DNA of 64,000 bases from Gemmatimonadota bacterium (GTDB taxonomy: Bacteria; Gemmatimonadota; Gemmatimonadetes; Gemmatimonadales; GWC2-71-9): positions 66,682 through 130,681 of the forward strand of contig JAKLGU010000002.1 in assembly GCA_022710485.1 (NCBI GenBank), given 5' to 3'. How positions within the stretch are numbered: position 1 is the stretch's first letter; each line of letters starts with the position of its first letter. Positions 3,254 through 51,340 of this stretch are shown piece after piece. The position numbers and the translations under genes were made by a program. The notes beneath the pieces are model-generated. The model ran no database searches. It was not told the DNA's origin and saw nothing but the letters and a program-made list of their open reading frames with translations.

Positions 3254-3285
3254 GCGGGGAAGCGGGGAAGCGGGGAAGCGGGGAA
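3254..3285 (+). repeat. Octamer array, 4 units of GCGGGGAA
   Basis: Four perfect tandem copies of the 8-bp unit start one base after the aminotransferase stop codon. The same unit recurs at seven other loci in this window, several of them inside genes. Confidence 0.9.
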
Positions 3286-40119: not shown

Positions 40120-40173
40120 TTGACGCCCACCCCACCGGTGCCCTACATTCGGGAAAACCGAAGAAAAACCGAA
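40120..40173 (+). promoter_or_regulatory. Promoter with overlapping palindromic operator, upstream of the DNA-damage cassette
   Basis: TTGACG (40120-40125) and TACATT (40144-40149) are spaced by 18 bp, a good sigma70-type promoter. A perfect palindrome TTCGG-N5-CCGAA (40148-40162) overlaps the -10 box and likely start site. A further CCGAA half-site occurs at 40169-40173. This placement is typical of a repressor operator. A LexA-like protein is the natural suspect, because the genes are DNA-damage functions, but the box matches no LexA consensus I know. Confidence 0.6.
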
Positions 40174-40183
40174 AGAGGACACC

Positions 40184-40348
40184 ATGCCCCCTGCCGCCCA
40201 GCCGCCCCGCCCAACCACCTACCTGCCGACGCGCCCCAACCCGTTGACCTATCAGCATATCCGTGTCTGTCCCGAGTGCGCCGGCCCGGTGGCCCACAAC
40301 TCCGGCTGCGTCACCTGCAGGGCGTGCGGCTGGGGGCGTTGCGGGTAA
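40184..40348 (+). CDS. 54-aa zinc-ribbon protein
   Basis: A small gene with a strong ribosome-binding site (AAAGAGGA) and ATG 40184. After a Pro-rich N-terminus it reads IRVCPECAGPVAHNSGCVTC, then RACGW and a final CG, giving CPxC and CxxC knuckles of a zinc ribbon like that at the C-terminus of class II ribonucleotide reductases. Its TAA overlaps the ATG of the radical SAM gene by 1 bp, so it is the first gene of the cassette. Function is unknown; DNA or protein binding is plausible. Confidence 0.7.
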   Translation: MPPAAQPPRPTTYLPTRPNPLTYQHIRVCPECAGPVAHNSGCVTCRACGWGRCG

Positions 40349-41478
40349 TGCGCCTCCTCGCCACCAGGAGCAAGGAGGCCGGTGATGCCCGGCGACGGGA
40401 ATGGTCCGGAGGCGCGTCGGTTCGCGACACCCGGAGCGACCGCGGCGCGGAGGGTGCGCAAACCGCAGCGTCGGAGGAGCATCCCGAGCCGGGCACCCGC
40501 GCGAGTGCCCAACTCTCCCTGCTCCCACCCCACCGCGCGAGGCTGCTCCCCGTCCTCGGCGCAGTTGAGGGCCGCGCCGTCACCTTCGAAGCCGTCCCGA
40601 CCCGCTCGATCCTCAACAGCCCCGCGGCCACCCACATGCCGTTCTGGTCGGTCAATCCGTACATCGGCTGCGAATTCGGCTGCACCTACTGCTACGCGCG
40701 GGATACGCATCGGTGGACCATGGAAAGGATGGAGGGTGCCACCGTCCCCCCTCTCCACATGGTGGAGAGGGGGACAGGGGGTGAGTCCTTCGAAAACCGC
40801 ATCCTCGTCAAGATCGACGCGCCCGCCATCCTCCGTCGCACCCTCGATCCCACGCGGATCGACGGCGCGCCCATCGTCATCGGCACCGCCACCGATCCCT
40901 ACCAGCCGGCCGAGCGCCGCTTCCGGATCACCCGCGGGCTGCTCGAGTCGCTCCTCCCGCACCGCGGGCTCCATCTCGGCATCATCACCAAGTCCCCCCT
41001 CATCACGCGGGACATCGACCTCCTGGTCCGGCTCGCCGAGCGGCACACCGTGAGCATTCACATCTCGCTCGCCGCCCTCGAGGGGCGGCTGGTCCGGCGC
41101 ATCGAGGCCCGCTCCCCCGCCCCGCACGCCCGGCTCCGCGCCCTCGGCCGCCTGGCCGGCGCCGGGCTCGACGTCGGCCTCCTCGTGGCCCCCATCATCC
41201 CCGGCGTCACCGACGGCCGGGCGCAACTGACCGCGCTCTTCCGCGCGGCGAAGGAAGCTGGTGCCCGTCGCGTAGCCGGGGAGGCGCTCCGACTCGGCCC
41301 CGCGGCGCGGCGCCACTTCCTTCCGCACCTGGCCCGCGAGTTTCCCGACCTCGCCGTGCGCTACAATCGCCGCTACGGACAGCGGCAGACGGCGGGGCAG
41401 GACTACACGGCGGCCCTCACCCGGCGCCTCGACGCCATCCGTCAGGAACTCGGACTCGAAGGGGGCAAGGGACTGTGA
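40348..41478 (+). CDS. SPL-like radical SAM protein (Rv2578c type)
   Basis: A 376-aa protein from ATG 40348. After a low-complexity N-terminus of about 65 residues comes the radical SAM site CEFGCTYCYAR (Cys108, Cys112, Cys115, CX3CX2C). Other matches are NPYIGCEFG, VIGTATDPYQPAERRFRITRGLLE and LIVAP-like VAPIIPGVTD, typical of spore-photoproduct-lyase-related proteins. SPL repairs thymine dimers, while the function of this branch is unproven. Residues about 131-146 are encoded by a hairpin repeat inserted in a loop. Its stop overlaps the ImuB-like gene by 4 bp, linking it to translesion synthesis. Confidence 0.8.
   Translation: MRLLATRSKEAGDARRREWSGGASVRDTRSDRGAEGAQTAASEEHPEPGTRASAQLSLLPPHRARLLPVLGAVEGRAVTFEAVPTRSILNSPAATHMPFWSVNPYIGCEFGCTYCYARDTHRWTMERMEGATVPPLHMVERGTGGESFENRILVKIDAPAILRRTLDPTRIDGAPIVIGTATDPYQPAERRFRITRGLLESLLPHRGLHLGIITKSPLITRDIDLLVRLAERHTVSIHISLAALEGRLVRRIEARSPAPHARLRALGRLAGAGLDVGLLVAPIIPGVTDGRAQLTALFRAAKEAGARRVAGEALRLGPAARRHFLPHLAREFPDLAVRYNRRYGQRQTAGQDYTAALTRRLDAIRQELGLEGGKGL
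40745..40785. repeat. Hairpin repeat inside the radical SAM gene
   Basis: Perfect 12-bp arms (CCCCCTCTCCAC and complement) with a 3-bp loop are followed by ACAGGGGGTGAG. A second copy with the same tail lies in dnaE2 at 43870-43910. Both are translated as PPLxxxERGTGGE. Confidence 0.85.
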
Positions 41479-42716
41479 CCCGCTCCGTCCTCTTCATCGA
41501 TCCCCCCGCCTTCTGCACCACCGTGGAGGCGCTCGTGGCCCCCGCCCTCCGCGGGCGGCCGCTCGTGGTGGCGGCCCCCGGCGCCGACCGCGCCACGGTG
41601 CTGGCCCTCTCGCCCGAGGCGCAGGCCGCCGGCATCACCCGCGGCATGGCGGTGCGCCAGGCCCGGAAGCGCTGCCCCGACCTGATGCTGCTCCCGCCCA
41701 ACCCGAAGCTCTACGCCCGCGCCTCCGCCGCGCTGCACGACATCCTCCGCCGCTACGCGCCGATCATCGAGCCCCGCGGCTACGGCCACGCCTACCTCGA
41801 CGTCACCGGCACCGGCGCCCTCTTCGGCCCGCCGGTGGACGTGGCGCTCCGCATCCACCGCGAGGCGCGGAGCGGCATTCGGCTCCCCGTCACCGTCGGC
41901 GTCGGCGCCAACAAGCTGGTGACCACCGTGGCCGCCGGGCAGCGGGACACCGACCAGAGCGGCGGCCGAGACGCCGTCGTCCCCGTGCCCGAAGGGGGCG
42001 AAGCCGCCTTCCTCTCGCCACACCGCGTGGCGCTCCTCCCCGACCTCGGCGAGCGCATGCGCGAGCGGCTCGACGACTACCAGCTCGACCTCATCGGCGC
42101 CGTGGCCGCCGTGGGCGCCCCCGCCCTGGGTCAGGTCTTCGGGCGCGCCGGCGCCGAGCTCCACGCCAAGGCGCGCGGCATAGACCCCCGCCCCGTCCTC
42201 CCCCCCGCCGTCCGCCGGGAGTTCCGCGCCGCCCATACCCTGGCCACCGACACCAACGACCTCGGCGTACTCCTGGCGCTGCTCCGCCGGCTCACCGAAC
42301 GTCTCGGCGCCAACCTCCGGACCCGGCACCTCGTGGCCCGCCGGCTCCGGCTCGACCTGGCCTACGCCGACTACAGCACCAGCCACCGCATCATCGCGCT
42401 TCCCGGCGCCGCCCTCGACGTGGCTCTCCTCGACGCCGCCCGCCGCGCCTTCACCCTGGCCAATACCAAGCGCATTGCCGTCCGCACCGTGGCCCTCGCG
42501 GCGGAACAATTGGCGGAAATGGAAGTGCAGATGGAATTGTGGGATGGCGGGGAGGCGGGGAAGCGGGGACGCGGGGAAGCGGGGGAGGAAAGAGAGCAAA
42601 CATTGCAGGCCAGCATCGACCAGATTCGTGATCGCTGGGGGACGCCAGGCATCGCGAGGGGAACGGTAAGGGCGCGGCCCGATCCTGCAGCACGAAATTG
42701 CGTTATCGTGCGCTAA
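41475..42716 (+). CDS. imuB: Y-family polymerase homologue lacking catalytic Asp-Glu (ImuB-like)
   Basis: A 413-aa protein from GTG 41475. It aligns with DinB/ImuB: FIDPPAFCTTVEAL keeps the first Asp (Asp9). The usual SxDEAYLD motif reads RGYGHAYLDVTG, so the catalytic Asp-Glu pair is replaced by Gly104-His105. The polymerase is therefore probably inactive, as in ImuB. Helix-hairpin-helix and little-finger regions follow. QMELW (352-356) resembles a beta-clamp-binding pentapeptide. An octamer array is translated immediately after it. In known systems ImuB bridges the clamp, ImuA and DnaE2. It overlaps the radical SAM gene by 4 bp. Confidence 0.78.
   Translation: MTRSVLFIDPPAFCTTVEALVAPALRGRPLVVAAPGADRATVLALSPEAQAAGITRGMAVRQARKRCPDLMLLPPNPKLYARASAALHDILRRYAPIIEPRGYGHAYLDVTGTGALFGPPVDVALRIHREARSGIRLPVTVGVGANKLVTTVAAGQRDTDQSGGRDAVVPVPEGGEAAFLSPHRVALLPDLGERMRERLDDYQLDLIGAVAAVGAPALGQVFGRAGAELHAKARGIDPRPVLPPAVRREFRAAHTLATDTNDLGVLLALLRRLTERLGANLRTRHLVARRLRLDLAYADYSTSHRIIALPGAALDVALLDAARRAFTLANTKRIAVRTVALAAEQLAEMEVQMELWDGGEAGKRGRGEAGEEREQTLQASIDQIRDRWGTPGIARGTVRARPDPAARNCVIVR
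42547..42586 (+). repeat. Octamer array, 5 units, inside the imuB-like gene
   Basis: Five tandem 8-bp units (variants of GCGGGGAA, the last imperfect) are translated as GGEAGKRGRGEAG, directly after the putative clamp-binding motif. Confidence 0.88.
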
Positions 42717-42736
42717 GGGTGGGCGTGAGCCCACCC
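42717..42736. terminator. Hairpin directly after the imuB-like stop codon
   Basis: Perfect 8-bp arms (GGGTGGGC and GCCCACCC) with a GTGA loop begin at the base after the TAA. There is no T-tract, so it may be a weak terminator, an mRNA-stabilising hairpin or part of the adjacent repeat. Confidence 0.5.
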
Positions 42737-42739
42737 CGC

Positions 42740-42768
42740 CTGCCGGAGCCGACGACCCCGACGACCGC
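42740..42768 (+). repeat. Left copy of a 29-bp inverted repeat flanking tag
   Basis: It begins CTGCCGGAGCCGACGACCCC. The reverse complement of 43377-43405 matches it at 28 of 29 positions. Confidence 0.85.
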
Positions 42769-42795
42769 ATAGACAGAAAACAGAAAGGCACACCA

Positions 42796-43338
42796 ATGGC
42801 GACGACCTACTGCGAAGTGGCGCCAGGCCACGAATGGCACGGCCCCTATCACGACACCGAATACGGCGTGCCGCTCACCGATGAGTCGGCGCTCTTCGAA
42901 CGGCTGATCCTGGAAATCAACCAGGCGGGGCTGAGCTGGCTCACCATCCTCAAGAAGCGCGAGGCCTTCCGGAAAGCGTACAGCGGGTTCGACGTCGAAA
43001 CGGTGTCGCGCTACGGCGCGCGGGAAACGAAGCGTCTCCTGACCGACGCCGGCATCATCCGCAACCGGCTCAAGGTCGAGGCCGCCATCCACAACGCACG
43101 GCAGGTGCTGGCCCTGCGCACGTCACATGGCGGCTTCGCCGCCTGGCTCGACGCGCATCACCCGCTCCCCAAACCGGAATGGGTCAAGCTCTTCAAGCAG
43201 ACCTTCCGCTTTACCGGCGGGGAAATCGTCGGCGAATTCCTCCTCAGTACCGGCTACCTGCCGGGCGCACACGAACCGGGGTGCCCGGCGTACGCGCGGA
43301 TACTGACCATGAATCCACCGTGGAGCCGCACGACGTGA
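42796..43338 (+). CDS. tag: 3-methyladenine DNA glycosylase I (Tag)
   Basis: A 180-aa protein. The N-terminal YCEVAPGHEWHGPYHDTEYGVP and C-terminal GAHEPGCPAY provide the Cys/His residues of the Tag zinc snap (Cys6, His19 and the C-terminal His/Cys). LILEINQAGLSWLTILKKREAFRKA contains the family signature with the active-site Glu and Trp. It excises 3-methyladenine from alkylated DNA. Lying between the ImuB-like gene and dnaE2, flanked by inverted repeats, it may be an inserted but functionally fitting repair gene. Confidence 0.9.
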   Translation: MATTYCEVAPGHEWHGPYHDTEYGVPLTDESALFERLILEINQAGLSWLTILKKREAFRKAYSGFDVETVSRYGARETKRLLTDAGIIRNRLKVEAAIHNARQVLALRTSHGGFAAWLDAHHPLPKPEWVKLFKQTFRFTGGEIVGEFLLSTGYLPGAHEPGCPAYARILTMNPPWSRTT

Positions 43339-43376
43339 ACAAGCCTGACGCGCGTGCCACAGGAGATGCGGCAATT

Positions 43377-43405
43377 GCGGTCGGCGGGGTCGTCGGCTCC
43401 GGCAG
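43377..43405 (-). repeat. Right copy of the 29-bp inverted repeat flanking tag
   Basis: The inverted counterpart of 42740-42768 (one mismatch), about 40 bp after the tag stop codon. Confidence 0.85.
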
Positions 43406-43526
43406 ACACTCTAACCACCCCACCCCGCTCCCCTGCGTGCTGCCTGCGCCGACGATCCCCTGCCTCCCTCAACGCTCCGTGGGCCCTCCGGGTCCACAGA
43501 ATCTTGTGTCGGTCTCGTAACTCACT

Positions 43527-43558
43527 TCCCCGCATCCCCGCTTTCCCGCTTCCCCGCC
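43527..43558 (-). repeat. Octamer array, 4 units (reverse), at the dnaE2 translation start
   Basis: Four TTCCCCGC-type units, two of them variant, end 4 bp before the dnaE2 ATG. They replace the normal ribosome-binding-site region, so no purine-rich Shine-Dalgarno is present. Confidence 0.85.
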
Positions 43559-43562
43559 CGAC

Positions 43563-46500
43563 ATGTTCACTCATCTCCATGTCCACACCCACTTCTCCTT
43601 CGGCTTCGGCGCCTCCAGCCCGGAGGCGATGGTCGAGGCCGCCATCGCGCGCGGCTTCCGCACCCTCGCCTGCACCGACACCAACGGCGTCTACGGCGCC
43701 GTGGCGTTCCAGCAGGCCGCCGAGTCGGCGGGCATCCGCCCCATCCTCGGCGCCCACCTCCGGCTCGAGGGACAGGAGGCGGTGGCACTGGCGGTAGATG
43801 AACAGGGATGGGGCGCGCTGTGCCGGGCGATTACCCAAATCCACTGGAGCAAAGGCGCCAAAACAGACGTTCCCCCTCTCCGCTTGCCGGAGAGGGGGAC
43901 AGGGGGTGAGGTGAAAGGCGGGGAGGCGGGGAAGCGGGGAAGCGGGGAAGCATCGCTGGCGGACATCGTTGCGCAGGACCGTTCCGGGCTCATCCTCCTC
44001 TCCCGCTCGGTGCCGTTCCTCGAACGGGTCCGCGCGCTGGGCGGACCGGACAACCTCTACGCCGAACTGGTGCCGGGCCGGGAGCGCCACGGCGTCCTGG
44101 CCGCCACCCGGAAGCTCGGCCTGCCCGCCGTGGCCACCAACGCCGTCGCCTTCGCGAATCCGGAAGACTGGGCCCGCCACCGGCTGCTCGTGGCCATCGG
44201 CCAGAACACGACGCTGGCCGCCCTCGAGCAGTCGTCCCCGCTTCCCCGCTTCCCCGCTTCCCCGCCCTCGGCCTGGCTCCGCCCCGCCGCCGACCTGTCC
44301 CACACCTTCCCCGACTGCCCCGAGGCGCTCACCGCGGCGGAGGAGATCGCCGAGCGGTGCCGCTGGCGGATTCCGCTGGGCCGGGTGGTGCCGCCGCGCA
44401 TGACCGACCGCACCGACGCCTTCGAGCAGCTCCGCGCGCTGGCCTACGCCGGCGCCGAGCGGCGGTACGGCACCGTGGCGCCGGTGACGCGCGACCGGCT
44501 GGAGCACGAGCTGGCCATCATCGGGATGAAAGGATTCGCCGACTACTTCCTGGTGGTGCACGACATCGTCGCGCACGGCCCGACCCACTGCGGCCGCGGC
44601 TCCGTCGCCAACTCGGTGGTGAGCTACTGCCTCGGCATCACCCACGTCGAGCCGCTCGGCGCCGGGCTCCTCTTCGAGCGGTTCCTCAACCCGGCGCGCA
44701 CCGACCCGCCGGACATCGACCTCGACTTCCCCTGGGACGAGCGGGACCACGTGCTGGCCTACGTGTTCCGCCGCTATCCCTTTCCCCGCGCGGCGATGGT
44801 GGCCAACCACAATTGCTTCCGGCTCCGCGGCGCGCTCCGCGAGGTGGCCAAGGTGCACGGGCGCCCCGCCGGCGAGATCCGTGAGGTGACCCGCCGCATC
44901 CCCTGGTACCCCGACGAACAGCCGCTCGACCAGCTCCTCGCCACACACCCCAACTTCCAGGGCCTCGACCTGCCGCAGGCGTGGCAGGGGTTCGCCCGCG
45001 AGGCCGAGCCGCTGGTCGGCGTGCCGCGGCACCTCTCGCTCCACCCCGGCGGCGTGGTCATCGTGCCGACGGCGCTCACCGACCACGTGCCGCTGGAGCG
45101 CGCGGTGAAGGTGCTTGACGGCGCGCCGGAGCTCACCGTTCCCGTCATCCAGTTCGAGAAGGACGGCGCCGAGGACGCCGGGCTCGTCAAGATCGACCTC
45201 CTCGGCAACCGCTCGCTGGCGGTGATTCGGGACGCGATCACGGCCGTCCACGCCAACACCGGCCGCCGCATCGACTACACCTCGCAGGAGGCGGGGGAAG
45301 ACGAGGCGACGAAGGCGCTCTTCCGCACCGGCCAGACGATGGGGGTCTTCTACACCGAGAGCCCCGCCTCCCGGCAGCTCTGCGCCAAGTCGCGCGCCGA
45401 CACCTTCGAGCTGCTGGTGCTCAACACCAGCATCATCCGCCCCGCGTCGAACCGCTTCATCCGGCAGTACCTGGCGCGGCTCCACGGTGAGCCCTACGCG
45501 CCGCTGCATCCGGTGCTGCGCGATACGCTCGCCGGCACCTTCGGGATCATGGTGTACCAGGAGGACGTGGTCCATGTCTGCCAGGCGTACGCCGGCATGT
45601 CGCTGGCCGACGCCGACGGGCTCCGGAAGTCGCTGCAGAAGAAGCGCCCCGGCAAGCAGCTGGCCTCCTACGCGGCGGAGTTCCTGCGCGGCGCCCAGTC
45701 GCTCGGCCGGGAGGACGCCGTGACCGAGCAGGTCTGGCACATGGTGATGTCGTTTTCCGGGTACAGCTTCTGCAAGGGCCACTCGGCGTCGTACATCCAG
45801 GTGGCGCAGCAGGCCTGCTATCTCCGCGCCAACTATCCTGCCGAGTTCATCGCCGCGGTGCTCGCCAACGGGGGCGGCTTCTATCACCCCTTTGCGTATG
45901 TCGCCGAGGCGCGGCGGATGGGGCTCACGATCCTGCCGCCGGACGTGAACGCGAGCGAGTTCCGCACGACGGGAAACGGGCGGGAAGTGCGGATCGGGCT
46001 GCAGTTCATCAACGGGCTCTCGGCCAAAGGCGGGGAAGCGGGGACGCGGGGAAGGCCGTATCGCGATTTTGCGGATGTGCGCTCGCGGAGCGGGCTCTCG
46101 GCGGACGACCTCCGCATCCTCATCAAGGCCGGCGCGTGCGACAGCATTGCGGGGGGCATGACGCGGCCGATGATGCTGTGGGCGGTGGATAGCGGGGAGG
46201 CGGGGAAGCGGGGACGCGGGGAGGCGGAGTTGCTTCCCCGCATCCCCGCTTCCCCGCCCTTGCCCGATTATTCCGACGAGCGCCGCCGGCAGGACGAGTA
46301 CGCCGCGCTCGGGTTCCTCACCGCCCATCACCCGATGGCGCTGTACGCCGACCGGCTCCGGCGCTTCCGCCTGGTCCGGAGTCCCGACCTGCCCAGGCAC
46401 GTCGGACACACCGTCCTGCTGGCCGGGATGCTCACCACCGCCAAGCCGGTGCACACCGCGGCCGACGAACCGATGGAATTCGCCACCTTCGACGATGGCC

Positions 46501-46676
46501 ACGGGCTGGTCGAGACCGTTCTCTTCCCGCAGGTGTACCGCAGCCGGGGACACGTGCTGTTCGACCAGGGGCCGTTCCTGCTCAAGGGCAAAGTGGAGGA
46601 GGAATTCGGGGCGATCACGGTCACCGTCACCCACCTCGAGCGGGTGGACCGGATGCTCGCCCGGCCTGGTGCCTGA
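43563..46676 (+). CDS. dnaE2: DnaE2-type error-prone DNA polymerase III alpha subunit
   Basis: A 1037-aa C-family polymerase. The N-terminal PHP domain starts HLHVHTHFSFGFGA. The polymerase core has PDIDLDFPW (catalytic Asp386 and Asp388) and LVKIDLLGNRSL with the third Asp. The fingers and clamp region includes FSGYSFCKGHSASYI, and the C-terminal OB domain is near GHTVLLAGMLTTAKPVH. Length and context fit DnaE2, the translesion polymerase of the ImuA-ImuB-DnaE2 mutasome. Four loops (residues about 103-129, 224-235, 823-831, 877-898) are encoded by hairpin or octamer repeats that keep the frame. The start at 43563 has no Shine-Dalgarno. Confidence 0.87.
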   Translation: MFTHLHVHTHFSFGFGASSPEAMVEAAIARGFRTLACTDTNGVYGAVAFQQAAESAGIRPILGAHLRLEGQEAVALAVDEQGWGALCRAITQIHWSKGAKTDVPPLRLPERGTGGEVKGGEAGKRGSGEASLADIVAQDRSGLILLSRSVPFLERVRALGGPDNLYAELVPGRERHGVLAATRKLGLPAVATNAVAFANPEDWARHRLLVAIGQNTTLAALEQSSPLPRFPASPPSAWLRPAADLSHTFPDCPEALTAAEEIAERCRWRIPLGRVVPPRMTDRTDAFEQLRALAYAGAERRYGTVAPVTRDRLEHELAIIGMKGFADYFLVVHDIVAHGPTHCGRGSVANSVVSYCLGITHVEPLGAGLLFERFLNPARTDPPDIDLDFPWDERDHVLAYVFRRYPFPRAAMVANHNCFRLRGALREVAKVHGRPAGEIREVTRRIPWYPDEQPLDQLLATHPNFQGLDLPQAWQGFAREAEPLVGVPRHLSLHPGGVVIVPTALTDHVPLERAVKVLDGAPELTVPVIQFEKDGAEDAGLVKIDLLGNRSLAVIRDAITAVHANTGRRIDYTSQEAGEDEATKALFRTGQTMGVFYTESPASRQLCAKSRADTFELLVLNTSIIRPASNRFIRQYLARLHGEPYAPLHPVLRDTLAGTFGIMVYQEDVVHVCQAYAGMSLADADGLRKSLQKKRPGKQLASYAAEFLRGAQSLGREDAVTEQVWHMVMSFSGYSFCKGHSASYIQVAQQACYLRANYPAEFIAAVLANGGGFYHPFAYVAEARRMGLTILPPDVNASEFRTTGNGREVRIGLQFINGLSAKGGEAGTRGRPYRDFADVRSRSGLSADDLRILIKAGACDSIAGGMTRPMMLWAVDSGEAGKRGRGEAELLPRIPASPPLPDYSDERRRQDEYAALGFLTAHHPMALYADRLRRFRLVRSPDLPRHVGHTVLLAGMLTTAKPVHTAADEPMEFATFDDGHGLVETVLFPQVYRSRGHVLFDQGPFLLKGKVEEEFGAITVTVTHLERVDRMLARPGA
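43870..43910. repeat. Hairpin repeat inside dnaE2
   Basis: A second copy of the hairpin seen at 40745-40785 (arms CCCCCTCTCCG and complement, then ACAGGGGGTGAG). It is translated in frame and followed within 8 bp by an octamer array. Confidence 0.85.
43918..43949 (+). repeat. Octamer array, 4 units, inside dnaE2
   Basis: One GCGGGGAG unit and three GCGGGGAA units, translated as GGEAGKRGSGEA. Confidence 0.9.
44234..44265 (-). repeat. Octamer array, 4 units (reverse), inside dnaE2
   Basis: One GTCCCCGC and three TTCCCCGC units, translated as SPLPRFPASPP. Confidence 0.9.
46030..46053 (+). repeat. Octamer array, 3 units, inside dnaE2
   Basis: Three GCGGGGAA/C units translated as GGEAGTRGR. Confidence 0.85.
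46192..46257. repeat. Facing octamer arrays forming a hairpin inside dnaE2
   Basis: Four forward units (46192-46223), a 10-bp spacer and three reverse units (46234-46257) can fold into one GC-rich hairpin. They are translated as SGEAGKRGRGEAELL and PRIPASPP. Confidence 0.85.
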
Positions 46677-50380: not shown

Positions 50381-51340
50381 ATGGCGGACGGCGACGCGCC
50401 ACTATCGGATGAGGAGCTCGGTCGCCTCCGCACCACGCTCCCCGTCGGCGTTCACTTCGGCACGTCGTCGTGGAACTACCCGGGGTGGCAGGGGCTCGTC
50501 TACCACAAGAAGTACCCGAAGACCGGCGCCAGCGGGAAGATGCTCGCCGAATACGCGCAGTGGCCCCTCTTCTCCACCGTCGGGATTGATTCCAGCTTCT
50601 ACAATCCGTTGTCCGAGAAGACCCTCGCCGAGTACGCAGCGGCGCTGCCGCCCGGCTTCCGGTGCGTCAGCAAGGTGTGGGACCGCATCACGGTCCACAC
50701 CCACAGCAAGCTGCGCGACAAGACGCACGCCGGGCAGCCCAACCCCGACTTCCTCAACCCCGAGTTGTTTGTCGAGGCCGTCCTCGACCCCTGCCTCCGG
50801 CACTTCCGCGAGCATCTGGGCCCGTTCGTCTTCGAATTCCAGGCCATCACGCACAAGTCGAAGGTGCCGCCGCAGGCCTTTGCCGACCAGCTCGACCGGT
50901 TCTTCTCGGCCCTTCCGCGCACGGCGCCGTATGCGGTGGAAGTCCGGAACGAGGAGTACCTGACTCCCGCCTACTTCGCGGTCCTGCGCGAGCACGACGT
51001 GGCGCACTGCTTCAACTCCTGGACCCGCATGCCCTCCATCGGGGAGCAGCTCGACCTCCCGGGGGCCGTCACCGCGTCGTTCATCGTCGCGCGGGCGCTC
51101 CTCCGGCCCGGCCGGTACTACGCGGATGCGGTGGACGCGTTCGCGCCGTACGACCGGATCCAGGACCGGAACCCCGAACTGCGAGCGGACCTCGTCCGGC
51201 TCATCGAATCGGCGGAGAAGGCCCGGATCCCGGCGTATGTGCTGGTCAACAATCGCGCCGAGGGAAGCGCCCCGCTCACGATCGCGGCGGTGGCCAGGAT
51301 CCTGGCGTCCGGGGGGGAAACGAGACCGGCCCGCTCCTGA
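50381..51340 (+). CDS. DUF72 family protein
   Basis: A 319-aa TIM-barrel-like protein from ATG 50381. HFGTSSWNYPGWQGLVY and FSTVGIDSSFYNPLSEKTLAEYAAALP are the DUF72 signatures; YAVEVRNEEYLTPAYFAVL and AYVLVNNRAEGSAP follow. The biochemical function is not established (older relatives are called YecE). It starts one base after the sugar dehydrogenase stop codon. A hairpin at its 3' end separates it from the convergent TfoX gene. Confidence 0.87.
   Translation: MADGDAPLSDEELGRLRTTLPVGVHFGTSSWNYPGWQGLVYHKKYPKTGASGKMLAEYAQWPLFSTVGIDSSFYNPLSEKTLAEYAAALPPGFRCVSKVWDRITVHTHSKLRDKTHAGQPNPDFLNPELFVEAVLDPCLRHFREHLGPFVFEFQAITHKSKVPPQAFADQLDRFFSALPRTAPYAVEVRNEEYLTPAYFAVLREHDVAHCFNSWTRMPSIGEQLDLPGAVTASFIVARALLRPGRYYADAVDAFAPYDRIQDRNPELRADLVRLIESAEKARIPAYVLVNNRAEGSAPLTIAAVARILASGGETRPARS

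Follow-up and report, generated by a model that had tools for sequence, protein, structure and literature searches.

Mutasomes of the ImuA-ImuB-DnaE2 kind are known from Caulobacter, Mycobacterium and Pseudomonas. Five co-directional ORFs at positions 40184-46676 (+ strand) of a 64-kb stretch of Gemmatimonadota DNA, the whole of which we call the window, encode a zinc ribbon, a radical SAM protein, a Y-family polymerase, Tag and a DnaE-type polymerase, and they raise the question of whether a damage-inducible mutasome exists here without ImuA and with a radical SAM protein as a partner. We lean towards the view, in a single judgement covering both points, that this is a mutasome operon under LexA control and lacking ImuA, and that it works by the mechanism proposed below.

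ORF and domain searches confirmed the five-gene cassette with 1-bp and 4-bp overlaps that an earlier note on this DNA had described. The zinc-ribbon and radical-SAM genes overlap by 1 bp (TAATG at 40346) and the radical-SAM and Y-family genes by 4 bp (GTGA at 41475); gaps of 79 bp and 224 bp separate the Y-family gene from Tag and Tag from DnaE. The family matches were Radical_SAM (1.4e-11), IMS (4e-34), Adenine_glyco (1.9e-39) and DNA_pol3_alpha (1.3e-64). Since many relatives have the same genes side by side, the arrangement is not a product of chance. The source genome is a 2.53-Mb draft (79.8% complete), most closely related, among named genomes, to metagenome-derived Gemmatimonadales; all statements of absence made here rest on draft genomes. 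The features of the locus are as follows.

40120..40149, + strand: sigma-70-type promoter match, TTGACG-N18-TACATT (a single hit in 6.9 kb against 0.2 expected)
40158..40173, - strand: predicted LexA (SOS) box TTCGG-N6-TTCGG (TTCGGTTTTTCTTCGG), motif taken from relatives' recA and lexA promoters
40184..40348, + strand: zinc-ribbon protein, 54 aa, CxxC...CxxCxxC, similar to the ribbon at the C-terminus of B12-dependent ribonucleotide reductase (2e-7)
40348..41478, + strand: radical SAM protein, Rv2578c/PA0069-like, CxxxCxxC kept, without the clamp-type tail that most relatives have at the C-terminus
41475..42716, + strand: Y-family polymerase, DinB-like, catalytically dead by sequence, putatively in the ImuB role
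41784..41789, + strand: lost catalytic pair of the Y-family protein, Gly104-His105 for Asp-Glu
42528..42542, + strand: predicted beta-clamp-type motif QMELW, Y-family residues 352-356
42547..42577, no strand: 8-bp-period GCGGGGAA-type repeat, an in-frame insert in the Y-family gene
42600..42662, + strand: candidate RecA-N-terminus-like motif TLQASIDQIRDRWGTPGIARG in the Y-family tail, after QMELW (own RecA: ALNLAISQIEKQLGKGSIMRMG)
42796..43338, + strand: Tag, 3-methyladenine DNA glycosylase I family
43563..46676, + strand: DnaE-type polymerase III alpha paralogue of a non-canonical lineage, short (1037 aa), catalytic PDxDxDF present
43918..46258, no strand: span with four in-frame GCGGGGAA-type clusters in DnaE (43918-43950, 44235-44265, 46030-46052 and 46192-46258)

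To define the LexA motif of Gemmatimonadota, we compared sequences upstream of recA from 16 genomes and of lexA from 18 (loci L159-L176 and L189-L204 for both genes). The direct repeat TTCGG-N6-TTCGG was exact in 16/16 recA and 18/18 lexA promoters (34/34), and most lexA genes had two copies upstream. The only exact match in the whole window lies 11 bp before the zinc-ribbon gene, between its start and the sigma-70-like promoter. Our survey set comprised 80 named Gemmatimonadota loci, retrieved with the radical-SAM protein alone; the box was directly upstream of the zinc ribbon/radical SAM in 78, the remaining two loci starting at a contig end, while TTCGG repeats with other spacers (0 to 20) were seen at this place in 0 or 1 loci each. 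Over 1.1 Mb, 125 of 126 boxes precede zinc ribbon/radical SAM, ImuA, ImuB or DnaE. A text search found no paper on a Gemmatimonadota LexA box, and these data provide a predicted one across the phylum. They make a strong computational case for the radical-SAM gene as a core SOS gene of Gemmatimonadota, which places an uncharacterised protein among the most constant predicted members of this regulon in these soil bacteria. SOS-regulated relatives have been described elsewhere: LexA directly controls a radical SAM gene in Streptomyces venezuelae (PMC9380542), and the predicted SOS regulons of proteobacteria (PMC3323433) and Bacteroidetes (PMC8565304) include splB homologues. The damage-inducible, non-canonical mutasome that had been proposed thus holds up as a prediction, with a LexA box that precedes the operon and recurs in relatives.

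Allowing two mismatches, no separate LexA box precedes Tag or DnaE in the window, whereas the DnaE gene of a congener has one upstream. No promoter-like site was found before the window's DnaE, where the gap contains a repeat instead, and so transcription would have to read through two gaps for this gene to be expressed.

In the Y-family protein Asp9 (FIDPPAF) is retained, but GYGHAYLD replaces the SxDEAYLD of active DinBs, and on this ground we judge it catalytically dead, in agreement with the inactive polymerase proposed before; both lost residues are catalytic carboxylates. The Asp/Glu loss is conserved in the Y-family proteins of window-type relatives, nearly all of which also carry a clamp motif of the form Q[LM]x[LMF][WF]. 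The motif TLQASIDQIRDRWGTPGIARG matches the cell's own RecA at 7 of about 22 residues (a raw count of identities) and likewise recurs in relatives. Phylogenetically the protein falls on the DinB side, with a union with canonical ImuB/ImuY not rejected (AU p=0.26). Its structure prediction was poor (pLDDT 61) and was left out of the analysis.

The neighbouring DnaE had been labelled DnaE2, which proved too loose. In the DnaE tree the window protein forms a fully supported clade with those of family relatives, of a Desulfosarcina ovata plasmid and of Bacteroidota plasmids, the last coming from SOS DinB-DnaE operons. This clade is separate from both canonical DnaE2 and DnaE1, and orthology of the window's DnaE with canonical DnaE2 was rejected (AU p=9e-7).

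A separate, intact imuA-imuB-dnaE2 locus elsewhere in the genome had been named in advance as an observation that would speak against such a system; none was found in the 79.8% complete assembly. Besides those of the operon, one Y-family gene was found there, encoding a DinB with intact SLDEGYLD, and one full-length DnaE, which is replicative. For the source and for the relatives searched (20 family genomes, 14 of them at least 90% complete), the strong matches of the ImuA model were to RecA only. Profile searches for ImuB-C, fused or standalone, found none in window-type loci, while it is present in type-1 and ImuA-bearing loci. The earlier note had the radical SAM protein sitting in the place of ImuA. 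This positional replacement was rejected, given that 11 Gemmatimonadota loci have ImuA itself between the radical SAM gene and ImuB; from these loci it follows that ImuA was most simply lost and that RecA is the likelier stand-in.

Does the radical SAM gene belong functionally with the mutasome, or does it merely share its regulation? A neighbourhood survey, which had been suggested as a check, found a mutasome gene within the 9-kb flanks in 47 of the 80 loci and none in 14 (with at least 5 kb visible on both sides), 19 being unjudgeable; linkage therefore stands at 47/61 resolvable loci. Chance proximity, estimated from genome size, is well under 1%; as the loci are related, the stronger point is the variety of the mutasomes, which are of three types.

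Architecture A: rSAM-imuA-imuB-dnaE2, with ImuB-C fused to ImuB (11 loci with ImuA)
Architecture B: rSAM-ImuY-like-ImuB-C-DnaE2, resembling the Deinococcus cassette (PMC8072749; the D. deserti cassette was compared)
Architecture C: the type of the window, without ImuA and without ImuB-C

Three loci (L041, L058 and L068) have a divergent window-type mutasome on the strand opposite to the radical SAM gene. Their synteny (transporter, zinc ribbon, radical SAM, DUF72) is the one in which other family members have architecture B, which suggests that the mutasome was replaced in place beside the radical SAM gene. Three architectures beside one gene suggest, besides such replacement, a functional tie.

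The 14 loci with a LexA box and no mutasome in the flanks indicate that the radical SAM protein can act alone. They also favour a possible but doubtful alternative, by which only regulation is shared: the zinc-ribbon/radical-SAM pair would be an independent SOS gene kept in place by inherited order, Tag would be a passenger, and no complex would form. The presence of unrelated genes (DUF72, quinone oxidoreductase, transporters) in the same synteny and the confinement of Tag to one sub-clade point the same way. Plain inherited order, however, fails to explain why different mutasome lineages, in different orientations, lie beside the same radical SAM gene, and the gene overlaps in the window, together with the clamp-type tails on radical SAM proteins, argue against it as well. 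Another reading, rather unlikely in our estimate, makes the zinc ribbon/radical SAM a clamp-tethered SOS lesion-remodeller that would act at the stalled fork with any mutasome present in the genome. Radical-based repair and error-prone bypass would then make up a single exchangeable assembly, in which the mutasome would have been swapped in place at least once and the radical SAM part retained.

What the radical SAM protein itself may do is approached through its relatives. A zinc ribbon is encoded directly upstream of it in 72/103 loci. The window protein matched the Rv2578c-type model at 4e-68 and 230 bits (cut-off 430) and the PA0069 model at 204 bits (cut-off 360), below both cut-offs, and represents a subgroup related to these families yet separate from them. 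The designation as spore photoproduct lyase (SPL)-like, made earlier, describes no more than a resemblance in structure: the predicted fold (core pLDDT about 90) has SPL as its best PDB match (E 1.5e-5, with modest TM-scores of 0.43-0.51), and CxxxCxxC is followed by Tyr in both. A sequence search of PDB found no relative. The hydrogen donor of SPL is Cys140 in the solved enzyme. Among 39 aligned radical-SAM sequences, C108, C112 and C115 of the CxxxCxxC motif are invariant and no Cys beyond these three cluster cysteines is, the SPL hydrogen-donor Cys not being conserved; the score is also under the SPL model cut-off. With only the cluster cysteines invariant, the protein should not be named SPL.

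Clamp-type penta- or hexapeptides (QLSLF, QLALPL and kin) were found in the last 16 residues of 67 of 87 distinct radical-SAM relatives; shuffled tails gave 4.3 expected motifs and a maximum of 11 in 1000 trials. From this motif we infer that the tails of the relatives may bind the sliding clamp. An independent hint of a clamp link comes from archaea, where SplB-like genes lie next to nreB, which encodes a protein with a possible PCNA motif (PMC4929162). If the tails do bind the clamp, work at the replication fork could directly address what SplB-like proteins do in SOS-proficient bacteria that form no spores. The tail has been lost in the window's genus, and physical coupling would thus be weakened at this very locus.

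Tag had been considered a part of the cassette, and its gene does lie before DnaE. It scored 136 bits against PF03352 (cut-off 25), below the stricter NCBIfam Tag cut-off, and aligned with the E. coli Tag structure over residues 17-119 (5e-25), with a weak second segment aligning HxxxC near the C-terminus. On these matches it has the fold and the catalytic region of the family. The same subtype (at least 64% identity) is shared by about 17 further genomes of the family and, where contigs permit judgement, mostly lies near a window-type DnaE. The divergent type lacks Tag, as do some window-type loci (L061, L042, L077), and a LexA box of its own is rare, being missing in nearly all loci. By this distribution Tag is a later, sub-clade addition, possibly transcribed from the operon promoter.

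The sequence itself shows the gene content, the LexA box, the lost catalytic residues, the motifs and the linkage, with neither ImuA nor ImuB-C detected; the mechanism that we favour goes on from there to propose induction, binding to clamp and RecA, bypass activity and a substrate for the radical SAM enzyme. On DNA damage, RecA would trigger LexA cleavage and the operon would be expressed, giving the zinc ribbon, the radical SAM protein and the dead DinB-like protein, with Tag and DnaE following probably by read-through. The dead Y-family protein would serve as a scaffold, contacting the sliding clamp via QMELW and RecA via the RecA-N-terminus-like motif, and would recruit the DnaE paralogue, which would perform error-prone bypass. 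The co-induced zinc-ribbon/radical-SAM pair would most likely use 5'-deoxyadenosyl-radical chemistry to reverse or remodel a lesion where the fork has stalled, the radical SAM protein of most relatives bringing its own clamp-type tail; Tag would concurrently excise alkylated adenines. Coupled repair and bypass as one system is a plausible hypothesis.

It could be argued that the operon is decaying in the window's lineage, through repeat invasion and the loss of the radical-SAM tail and DnaE promoter, and that its products are poor or non-working. Six of the seven repeat clusters in the window do lie in or beside the Y-family and DnaE genes, and the missing DnaE LexA box (compared with the congener) and the lost tail fit such a course. 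Against this, all frames are open and the inserts are in frame, those of DnaE falling in variable loops; the DnaE catalytic motif and the radical-SAM cluster motif are intact; and a same-genus genome retains the genes at 85-87% identity. We consider decay very unlikely.

The GCGGGGAA-type repeats are GC-rich and encode peptides like GEAGKRGRGEAG. Further clusters lie at 43527-43545, just upstream of DnaE, and at 3254. Six of the seven in the window are within 3.7 kb of the operon; genome-wide the motif has 184 matches, with 0 for the reversed control. The same DnaE loops in relatives contain other repeat-like peptides. A second, palindromic repeat, CCCCCTCTCC...GGAGAGGGGG, was found in the window in two copies only, at 40749-40790 (radical SAM) and 43871-43899 (DnaE).

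ImuA-less mutasomes and SOS-regulated SplB-like proteins are already known kinds. With the ImuA-ImuB-DnaE2 mutasome the window shares LexA control (predicted here), a dead Y-family scaffold with a clamp motif and an adjoining DnaE-type polymerase; it differs in having neither ImuA nor ImuB-C, in a DnaE from outside the canonical DnaE2 clade and in the added zinc ribbon, radical SAM protein and Tag. ImuA-less PolY-DnaE2 systems include the Bacteroidetes PolY2-DnaE, the S. coelicolor DinB2-DnaE2 and the Kyrpidia type, and Timinskas and Venclovas proposed RecA as the ImuA stand-in via a RecA-N-terminus-like motif (PMC6511836). These systems have in common with the window the lack of ImuA and a mostly SOS-controlled Y-family and DnaE operon, and the stretch TLQASIDQIRDRWGTPGIARG is a candidate for their RecA-N-terminus-like motif; the two genes are neighbours in the window too, but with Tag between them, and the same three additions set it apart. 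The window's DnaE groups with the Bacteroidota plasmid type, whose Y-family partners keep the catalytic pair (SIDE), unlike those of the window and of Desulfosarcina. The Deinococcus lexA-imuY-imuB-C-dnaE2 cassette (PMC8072749) differs by its ImuB-C and canonical-side DnaE2. The closest plasmid DnaE found outside the phylum (42% identity to the window's) is that of Desulfosarcina ovata; its operon also has a Y-family protein without the catalytic motif but contains its own lexA and neither radical SAM nor Tag.

The order in this Desulfosarcina ovata plasmid operon (L207, 5330-11105) is lexA-DUF72-Y-family-DnaE. A DUF72 gene also lies between the radical SAM gene and ImuB in many Gemmatimonadota loci, which makes DUF72 a possible additional SOS partner; the window has one at 50426-51316. 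Finally, a conserved gene for a small protein (about 102-136 aa) without a Pfam or NCBIfam match is located between the radical SAM and DUF72 genes in L070 (4351-5440) and its relatives, often as two or three diverged tandem copies.
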